From: an uncultured Pseudodesulfovibrio sp.
GTDB lineage: Bacteria; Desulfobacterota; Desulfovibrionia; Desulfovibrionales; Desulfovibrionaceae
Direction: 5' to 3'
DNA length: 64,000 nt
Assembly: GCF_963677845.1 (NCBI RefSeq)
Contig: NZ_OY782498.1
Coordinates: forward strand, 754,001 to 818,000
Part shown: positions 47,187 to 54,960 of the stretch, piece after piece
How the letters are laid out: every line of letters starts with the position of its first letter
Numbering within the stretch: position 1 is the first letter of the stretch
Translations under genes and position numbers: made by a program
Notes under the pieces: generated by a model
Told to the model about the DNA's origin: nothing
The model's input: the letters and a program-made list of their open reading frames with translations, nothing else
The model's database searches: none

Positions 47187-47246
47187 CGCGAAGCGACACA
47201 AAAAGTTTAGGAGAGTCCAGAGAACCCTTTTCAAAGGGGTCTCTGG
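47187..47246 (+). repeat. Dispersed extragenic repeat, copy B
   Basis: Core CGCGAAGCGACAC-AAAAAGTTTAGGA (47187-47213), then a hairpin CCAGAGAACCCTTT / AAAGGGGTCTCTGG with one mismatch (47217-47246). The AGAACCCTTTTCAAAGGG part also occurs in copy C. Just upstream, TGTCGCCTTCGGCG-AGTTGTT matches a stretch of copy D. Confidence 0.75.
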
Positions 47247-53408: not shown

Positions 53409-53547
53409 AGATGCCTTCGGCAGTCGTTCCTCTTACCCTTTCTTTAAACTTTTTGTAGGCGTGTCTGCGCGGGTGGTAGGTTGCGGAATGTGATGCTACA
53501 ATGCTTATGAAACTGAGGAGAGTCAGTCTTTTTCAGGAGTGAATGAT

Positions 53548-54357
53548 ATGGAAAGACAGCCAATTGTTGCGGGACGTTTTTATGATGACGAGCCTGAGAA
53601 GTTGTATGCCATGGTGGATGCGTTTCTTGGGTTGGGGAAGGACAAAAATCTAGATCGGACATTGCTGGCTATGGTGCCTCATGCTGGCTATATTTTCTCC
53701 GGTGCCGTATGCGGCAAGACGTTGGGCATGGCGAATCTGGAACAGACGGTACTTTTGCTTGGACCAAATCATACCGGGCGCGGAGAGCGATTCTCAGTGT
53801 GGAATGAAGGGGATTGGAATATTCCCGGTAGCTCTGTGTCGTTTGATTCGGATTTGGCGAATGCGTTATTGACTTCTGATGCCAATTTGAAGGCTGATGC
53901 GTCCGCGCATATGGATGAACACTCTCTAGAAGTCATATTGCCGTTTCTGCATCGTTTGGAGCCAGACACGACCATAGTGCCAATTTCCATCTCTTCGTCG
54001 TCCCTCGACTCTCTGAGACAGGTTGGGCAGGCTATTGGACAGACTCTTAAGACGTTTGATCGCCCTGTATCCATCGTGGTCAGTTCCGACATGAGCCATT
54101 ATATTTCACATGATGAGGCTAAGAAAATGGATTCCATGGCTTTGGAAGCGGTGGTCACGCTTGATCCAACAGCTTTGTTTAACACGGTTCGAGGAAATAA
54201 TATTTCCATGTGTGGTGTCCTGCCCATGACCACTGGTCTTTATGCCGCTCTTGAAATGGGGGCGACTAAAGGAGAACTGGTTGCTTATACCACTTCCGGC
54301 GAAGTTTCCGGTGATTTCGATCAGGTGGTGGGGTATGCAGGAGTTTTGGTGAGCTGA
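53548..54357 (+). CDS. MEMO1 family protein (AmmeMemoRadiSam system B-like)
   Basis: A 269-aa protein. ATG 53548 with GGAG eight bases upstream (a GTG at 53539 is possible). Signatures: AGRFYDDEPEKL, AMVPHAGYIFSGAVCGKTL, VLLLGPNHTG, HSLEVILPFLH and VVSSDMSHYISHDEAKKMD, the metal/active-site set shared with extradiol dioxygenase-fold MEMO1. In prokaryotes it commonly neighbours an AMMECR1 protein and a radical SAM enzyme; neither is nearby here. Confidence 0.88.
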   Translation: MERQPIVAGRFYDDEPEKLYAMVDAFLGLGKDKNLDRTLLAMVPHAGYIFSGAVCGKTLGMANLEQTVLLLGPNHTGRGERFSVWNEGDWNIPGSSVSFDSDLANALLTSDANLKADASAHMDEHSLEVILPFLHRLEPDTTIVPISISSSSLDSLRQVGQAIGQTLKTFDRPVSIVVSSDMSHYISHDEAKKMDSMALEAVVTLDPTALFNTVRGNNISMCGVLPMTTGLYAALEMGATKGELVAYTTSGEVSGDFDQVVGYAGVLVS

Positions 54358-54481: not shown

Positions 54482-54524
54482 AATCCCGAAGAAACTTGTT
54501 TCTTTGGGATTTATTTTGTTTTTT
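54482..54524 (+). terminator. Terminator after the MEMO1 gene
   Basis: AATCCC-gAAGAAA and TTTCTT-tGGGATT form a long stem (54482-54511) followed by TATTTTGTTTTTT. It may also serve the convergent selenoprotein gene. Confidence 0.8.
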
Positions 54525-54551
54525 CGACAACCTGCCGAGACTTTAAACGTG

Positions 54552-54755
54552 TCAGGAGCCACGATTATAGCCAATGGTTGTTTGTCCATTTTGAACTATG
54601 ACCGGGATTTTGCGTATCCCGTCTGTCAATTTGAGCATTGCTTCCAAATCTGCCGGGTTCATCAAAACGTCTACAAATTTTGCTTCCGGGTGCGCATCCA
54701 ACGCCCGCTTGGTATGCGGTCAGGTGGATTTCCCATAAATAATTATATCTGACAT
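54552..54755 (-). CDS. Glutaredoxin-like selenoprotein with in-frame UGA (Sec12)
   Basis: A 67-residue thioredoxin-fold protein whose codon 12 is UGA (54720-54722). The frame reads MSDIIIYGKST, then UGA, then PHTKRALDAH and on without a stop until TGA at 54552-54554. The N-terminal beta strand IIIYGKST directly precedes U-P-H-T, the place of the CPYC active site in glutaredoxins; KIPVIVQNG is the cis-Pro loop and IGYNRGS closes the fold. AAGGAG lies seven bases before ATG 54755. A stem-loop starts right after the UGA (SECIS-like). Selenoproteins of this glutaredoxin-like kind occur in Desulfovibrio relatives. A standard gene caller stops at codon 12 and misses it. The function is redox, probably thiol or selenol chemistry. 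Confidence 0.85.
54693..54718 (-). promoter_or_regulatory. Bacterial SECIS-like element of the selenoprotein mRNA
   Basis: Directly after the UGA codon the mRNA can fold as CGCAU, a bulged A, CCAA, a loop GCGGGCG, UUGG, AUGCG: nine paired bases with one bulge and a G-rich apical loop. Bacterial SECIS elements lie inside the coding region just downstream of the UGA and bind SelB through such loops. Confidence 0.65.
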
Positions 54756-54848
54756 GACGAGATCTCCTTTTTCTATACAATTACACCCACCCATTCACCT
54801 TTGTCCAACCTTCCAAACAAAGATAGATCATCCATTTGCACAACACTT

Positions 54849-54951
54849 CGCGAAGCGACACACAAAGTTTAGGAAAAGAGAGGGATGGGGGTCTGGGGGA
54901 AGGGAGAGAAAGAACCCTTTCCAAAGGGTTTTTCTCTCCCTTCCCCCAGAC
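54849..54951 (+). repeat. Dispersed extragenic repeat, copy C with a 29-bp hairpin
   Basis: Core CGCGAAGCGACACACAAAG-TTTAGGA (54849-54875), GATGGGGGTCTGGGGG, then a very long inverted repeat: 54891-54920 pairs with 54923-54951, 29 bp with a single bulge. It contains AGAACCCTTTCCAAAGGG, shared with copy B. Confidence 0.8.
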
Positions 54952-54960
54952 GTCGGAGAC

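Follow-up and report, generated by a model that had tools for sequence, protein, structure and literature searches.

The available excerpt of a 2026 review (PMC13188914) lists in its Table 1, among predicted families, NF041114 as 'Distant Grx-like protein 1 (UXX-star selenoprotein family 1)', with a UxxT motif and two selenocysteine (Sec) residues. We take the name UXX-star to describe a Sec with two further residues before the stop, which is our own interpretation. The family is not named in the available parts of PMC2398784 or PMC12013277. The review excerpt also gives rules for the bacterial Sec insertion sequence (bSECIS): a loop of 3–9 nt with G in its first two places, a stem of at least 4 bp, a distance of 16–37 nt after the UGA, and a minimum free energy of -7.5 kcal/mol or lower; the hairpin typically lies inside the coding region. 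Here, we describe a gene on the minus strand of a 64,000-nucleotide stretch of contig NZ_OY782498.1 from an uncultured Pseudodesulfovibrio sp. (the window; contig positions 754,001 to 818,000). The gene is a further member of the already catalogued family NF041114, and its kind is already known since the review excerpt lists that family. As judged from sequence, it very probably encodes a real selenium protein, a glutaredoxin-like chain of 70 residues with two Sec residues, at codons 12 (site 1) and 68 (site 2).

A sequence-only reading of the window had proposed a glutaredoxin-like selenoprotein with one Sec, encoded through an in-frame UGA. The idea of a selenoprotein is supported by the Sec machinery of the genome, by homologues with Cys, and by hairpins after the UGA codons; the number of Sec residues is two, not one. 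Most of the proposed frame also stands, namely the ATG (54753–54755), the Shine-Dalgarno sequence, the UGA at codon 12, the Pro-His-Thr that follows it, and the run of 55 sense codons before the next UGA; no strand had been named, and the strand is minus. It is the end of the gene that had to be moved. Codon 68, where the earlier reading had ended the frame, is an internal UGA, the second one in frame, and the gene is terminated by TAA at 54543–54545. UGA-68 is regarded as part of the gene because the family is named UXX-star and because Sec-x-x-stop occurs in 66 of 66 motif-fitting family genes. The 70-residue product reads MSDIIIYGKST-U-PHTKRALDAHPEAKFVDVLMNPADLEAMLKLTDGIRKIPVIVQNGQTTIGYNRGS-U-H-V, followed by TAA, so that its C-terminus is GSU-H-V-stop. 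The further claim that ordinary gene callers omit the gene applies only to open reading frame callers that read every UGA as a stop, since the family already carries the name NF041114.

Family membership and the positions of both UGA codons were computed directly. With Cys written in place of Sec for profile scoring, the 70-residue version scores 96.4 bits against NF041114 (cut-off 72) over profile positions 1–70 of 70, and a 67-residue version scores 87.8 bits. The protein also matches PF00462 (Glutaredoxin) at 33.1 bits (cut-off 22.9). Because both profiles are matched over their cut-offs, the frame is beyond chance. The gene has UPHT at codon 12, the second UGA at codon 68, and the end U-H-V-TAA. 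It shares with NF041114 the full-length profile match, UxxT at site 1, two Sec residues, and the Sec-x-x-stop end, and nothing sets it apart from the family; Sec is retained at site 1 here, where Cys stands in 22 of 29 genes sampled from the genus. The glutaredoxin-like layout is also shared by UXX-star families 2 and 3 and by the general Uxx-star model (NF041211, NF047338, and NF041212), but the gene falls under their cut-offs (40.8/100, 34/97, and 53.4/66 bits, respectively).

Among 60 related genomes, 37 (the one studied here counted) match NF041114 over its cut-off; for genomes of the phylum the figure is 100 of 395. We sampled 68 loci, comprising 38 matches from related genomes and the 30 best-scoring loci from the phylum search. 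A motif search that permitted U or C at either site returned 66 genes in 65 loci; this set takes in the gene itself and near-copies and is biased to high scores. Site 1 is encoded by UGA in 41 genes, UGC in 19, and UGU in 6, and Cys thus occurs at precisely codon 12 in 25 of the 66, as had been anticipated for homologues of such a protein. Site 2 is UGA in all 66 genes and Cys in none, though Cys was permitted, and it is always followed by two residues, mostly with Val last, and then a stop. On a tree of 65 rows and 70 columns, built after masking the two sites and with many of its forks unresolved, seven changes are needed at site 1, five of them forced by well-supported branches, which gives at least five switches between Sec and Cys. 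The retention of Sec-68 in every gene, together with repeated exchange at site 1, suggests from the sequences that the selenium at the C-terminus is the one that cannot be dispensed with.

Three of the 68 loci fall outside the motif. L060 is an ordinary CPYC glutaredoxin, and L090 has Cys at site 1 and ends U-R-V-V-stop, with three residues after Sec. In L059, a same-genus relative with the same gene order, the frame is broken near the gene start and the site-2 UGA is still visible; this reflects either decay of the copy or an error in sequencing. One genome carries two diverged tandem family genes (L080:1064–1276 and L080:1489–1701) with two Sec residues each, one terminated by UAG and the other by UGA.

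The machinery on which a selenoprotein depends was likewise computed directly and is present. The genome, a single contig of 3,701,887 bases, contains selA (1868621–1869991, 615 bits), selB (1861780–1863669, 398 bits), selD (3423424–3424353, 342 bits), and tRNA-Sec (2562285–2562374, 81.8 bits), each over its cut-off. The co-occurrence of NF041114 with selA is little informative, because selA is present in all 37 NF041114-positive related genomes, yet in 57 of the 60 overall. The selD gene of this genome itself has one in-frame TGA, and for this reason its SelD is probably also a selenoprotein.

A SECIS had been expected right after UGA-12, within the coding region; SECIS-like hairpins follow both UGAs, and covariation is clear for the second (SECIS 2), which lies past the stop codon. 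The sequence support for SECIS 2 is strong at the level of the family. In this gene it fits the bSECIS geometry, with five base pairs and the loop AGGUU at 18 nt. Under the published rules, a site-2 hairpin was found in 63 of the 66 genes, at -7.5 kcal/mol or lower in 47 of the 66, and its stem is wholly past the stop codon in 62 of those 63. The mean energies are -8.9 kcal/mol for genes with Sec at site 1 and -10.0 kcal/mol for genes with Cys, versus -1.65 kcal/mol for letter-shuffled sequences. When the search began at 6 nt and required GG close to the start of the loop, 57 of 66 genes gave a hairpin, with the loop 17–24 nt after UGA-68 in 51. In 35 genes of the order (consensus CCGGC-AGGUU-GCCGG), direct computation of covariation gave 42 both-sided changes against a shuffled mean of 15.5 (0 of 500 shuffles as high); 86.9% of the cells are paired, and the score drops on sliding the partner. 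SECIS 2 shares with the bSECIS of the review excerpt (PMC13188914) the G in the first two loop places, the 16–37 nt distance, and a stem of at least 4 bp, and differs from it in its place past the stop codon. A SECIS model (R1) searched against the genome matched this locus alone at E up to 10; of 1004 candidates from the first look, 150 were scored, and R1 therefore did not work here as a general SECIS finder. Rfam at a loose threshold returned 54 matches, none of them a SECIS or selenium family and most of them on an unrelated inverted repeat.

SECIS 1, after UGA-12, is probable from its sequence. The sequence-only reading had described a strong hairpin after this UGA, with a GGG-bearing loop, and that description was not confirmed. 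Folding the 44 nt that start at UGA-12 gives -11.1 kcal/mol, and shuffled versions average -11.5 (z 0.18; 112 of 200 shuffles as good); the GGG is paired in that fold. Three stretches folded from UGA-12 gave z between 0.18 and 0.41, and that hairpin was dropped as a distinctive feature. The candidate SECIS 1 has the bSECIS geometry, with the loop UGGAU at 19 nt and four base pairs. The best rule-conforming hairpin lies 18–19 nt after site 1 in 28 of 41 Sec genes versus 5 of 25 Cys genes; Fisher's test, which takes no account of relatedness, gives p 0.0003, and the counts after removal of duplicates are 27 of 40 versus 5 of 25. Among 39 Sec genes, 32 both-sided changes were counted (0 of 500 shuffles as high). 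The loop is more telling than the stem: GG/GU occurs in 33 of 39 Sec genes versus 7 of 25 Cys genes, though inside the order in only 7 of 13 versus 4 of 22. The loop of the gene studied here is one base outside this family register. Site-1 hairpins reach -7.5 kcal/mol or lower in 4 of 66 genes.

Several of the hairpin results weigh against Sec decoding guided in this way. The number of SECIS 1 pairs with both-sided change is 3, versus 2.9 in shuffles (456 of 500 as high). The SECIS 1 stem is paired in 98 of 125 cells of Cys genes, versus 160 of 195 cells of Sec genes, and because Cys genes pair almost equally well, the stem is owed in part to conserved amino acids. Three of the 66 genes are without a rule-conforming site-2 hairpin. 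Folded alone, both hairpins of this gene (-3.5 and -4.5 kcal/mol for SECIS 1 and SECIS 2, respectively) are weaker than the quoted limit of -7.5 kcal/mol, for which the published rule's folding stretch may differ.

The stop codon that follows Sec-68 varies among the 66 genes (UGA 29, UAG 20, UAA 17). The 29 genes that end in UGA carry it nine bases after the Sec-UGA, and this second UGA is a stop because UAG or UAA takes its place in the other 37. It lies 8–14 nt from the hairpin loop, under the quoted 16-nt minimum, which was imposed for the Sec-UGA in that search (the other search ran from 6 nt). The terminator UGA is apparently too close to the hairpin for Sec decoding, and spacing alone could decide, as the sequences suggest, between Sec and stop. 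No description of such UGA-Sec/UGA-stop pairs was found in the literature searched; the primary family papers are outside it, and so no priority is claimed.

Based on these results, we are confident that the gene encodes a true double selenoprotein of UXX-star family 1, with hairpin-guided UGAs decoded by SelB, and that this protein likely serves as a glutathione-free selenol redoxin. In the proposed mechanism, both UGAs would be read as Sec in the cell by SelB with Sec-tRNA, with a hairpin loop about 18–19 nt downstream guiding each of them; for the second UGA, this hairpin sits past the stop codon. Sec-12 would occupy the position of the first active-site Cys, whereas Sec-68 would lie two residues from the C-terminal end. 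AlphaFold2 models of 25 family sequences (Cys for Sec; mean pLDDT 88.8) have strands at residues 4–8, 26–29, 52–55, and 58–61 and helices at 13–21 and 34–43, so that the predicted fold is that of a shortened glutaredoxin (beta-alpha-beta-alpha-beta-beta) lacking the last helix. The closest solved folds are glutaredoxins, four of them with E up to 0.001 and TMq up to 0.76 (the latter to Clostridium cGrx2, 4tr0), and glutaredoxins are also first in the profile search. The gene differs from them in having UPHT instead of CPYC, a C-terminal Sec, and no last helix. Against glutaredoxin 3 it scores 18.8 of 90 (TIGR02181), which is under the equivalog cut-off, and the CPYC dithiol site is not present. 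We take the cis-Pro region to be glutaredoxin-like, and Sec-68 presumably comes after the stretch that matches the glutaredoxin Gly-Gly loop, which holds glutathione.

The genome has no match to the glutamate-cysteine ligase models PF04107 and PF04262, for each of which the E. coli control was positive. For glutathione synthetase (TIGR01380), the best score is 66.4 versus a cut-off of 299, again with a positive E. coli control; glutathione uptake and other thiols were not searched. The protein would be a small selenoredoxin or a metal-binding protein in a host without detectable glutathione synthesis. A glutathione-independent redoxin is proposed because of the glutaredoxin fold, the place of Sec-68, and the lack of detected glutathione synthesis. 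A small selenol-based redoxin appears most likely, in which the two selenols would pair, with residue 12 attacking and Sec-68 resolving, and glutathione would not be used. More tentatively, the protein may be a mini-glutaredoxin in which the C-terminal Sec replaces glutathione as the intrachain partner that resolves residue 12, while the hairpin in the 3' untranslated region (UTR) acts as a SelB ruler, by which a UGA 17–20 nt upstream is Sec and a UGA nine bases nearer (29 of 66 genes) is a stop.

The main rival explanation is that the two selenols bind or carry a soft metal (Hg, Cu, or As) and have no redoxin role. Thr replaces the second Cys of CxxC, ArsD metallochaperone structures occur among the weaker fold matches (E about 0.015–0.02), and a two-selenol metal site is mentioned in the excerpt of PMC13188914. 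However, glutaredoxins give the best matches in both fold and sequence, and no metal-handling family is prominent in 62 flanking proteins of distant loci among the matches listed (first 25 families). We consider a metal role conceivable and rather doubtful. It is far less probable that UGA-12 is Sec and UGA-68 an ordinary stop, giving a single-Sec protein of 67 residues. UGA is a normal stop codon, and the 67-residue version is already over the NF041114 cut-off. Against this stand the constancy of UGA-68 and of the two residues and varying stop behind it, the covarying hairpin at SECIS distance, the higher score of the 70-residue version over the full profile, and the two Sec residues counted for the family in the review excerpt. 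The small size, the in-frame UGA, and the broken frame of L059 would fit a decayed or chance frame, that is, a glutaredoxin pseudogene stopped at codon 12. Yet both UGA places are shared by unrelated genomes of the phylum with the protein between them conserved, the Sec machinery is present, and the hairpins covary, which makes decay the least credible account. A double selenoprotein remains our preferred reading.

The features of the locus are collected in Table 1. The fold of 85 nt over the terminator-like hairpin region, SECIS 2 included, has z -2.72 (4 of 200 shuffles as good). When the 68 loci were searched with four neighbours from the window, at least one neighbour was found in 29, all among the 31 same-genus loci. 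The gene order, with pnp before the family gene and a converging gene after it, is therefore inherited and was rejected as a functional link. The converging neighbour (53539–54357), which we take to resemble the MEMO family, stays beside the family gene in most sampled same-genus loci. For distant loci, 62 of 72 flanking proteins were scanned, and no family exceeds 5 of 62 among the matches listed, NDK and endonuclease III being commonest with 5 each. A search of a plasmid collection gave no match. Between pnp and the selenoprotein gene lies a long near-perfect inverted repeat (54888–54955), on which most of the spurious microRNA matches from Rfam fall. A second copy of its core, diverged in sequence, occurs near 47222–47241, with 4 matches on both strands versus 0.03 expected. 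A window scan for other read-through frames listed 13; the selenoprotein gene itself is not among them, so the scan is insensitive. Three of the 13 were read and, on inspection, look like ordinary genes with a frame extending past or starting before a stop.

Table 1. Features at the selenoprotein locus (positions in the window)
Feature	Position	Strand	Basis
Selenoprotein gene of UXX-star family 1: 70 codons, then TAA; codons 12 and 68 for Sec	54543..54755	minus	NF041114 profile match and frame as read
Shine-Dalgarno AAGGAG, 8-nt spacer to ATG	54764..54769	minus	sequence
UGA codon 12 (Sec, UPHT motif)	54720..54722	minus	UGA in 41/66 family genes, Cys codons in 25/66
Candidate SECIS 1, GCGU-UGGAU-GCGC, loop 19 nt after UGA-12	54692..54704	minus	-3.5 kcal/mol alone (weak here); family covariation, weakened by Cys-gene control
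UGA codon 68 (Sec, then His-Val-stop)	54552..54554	minus	UGA in 66/66 family genes
SECIS 2 in 3' UTR, UCGGC-AGGUU-GUCGA, loop 18 nt after UGA-68	54524..54538	minus	covariation in 35 genes; -4.5 kcal/mol alone
A+T-flanked hairpin, possible terminator, perhaps for both converging genes	54483..54510	unassigned	sequence

The corrected gene model has two Sec residues, 70 residues, and a different end. The chief points of note are the SECIS past the stop codon and the UGA-Sec/UGA-stop pairs. The family supplies a bacterial SECIS beyond the stop codon, backed by covariation in 35 genes, and the 29 of 66 genes with a UGA-Sec followed by a UGA-stop are ready substrates for asking how close to the hairpin SelB still acts.
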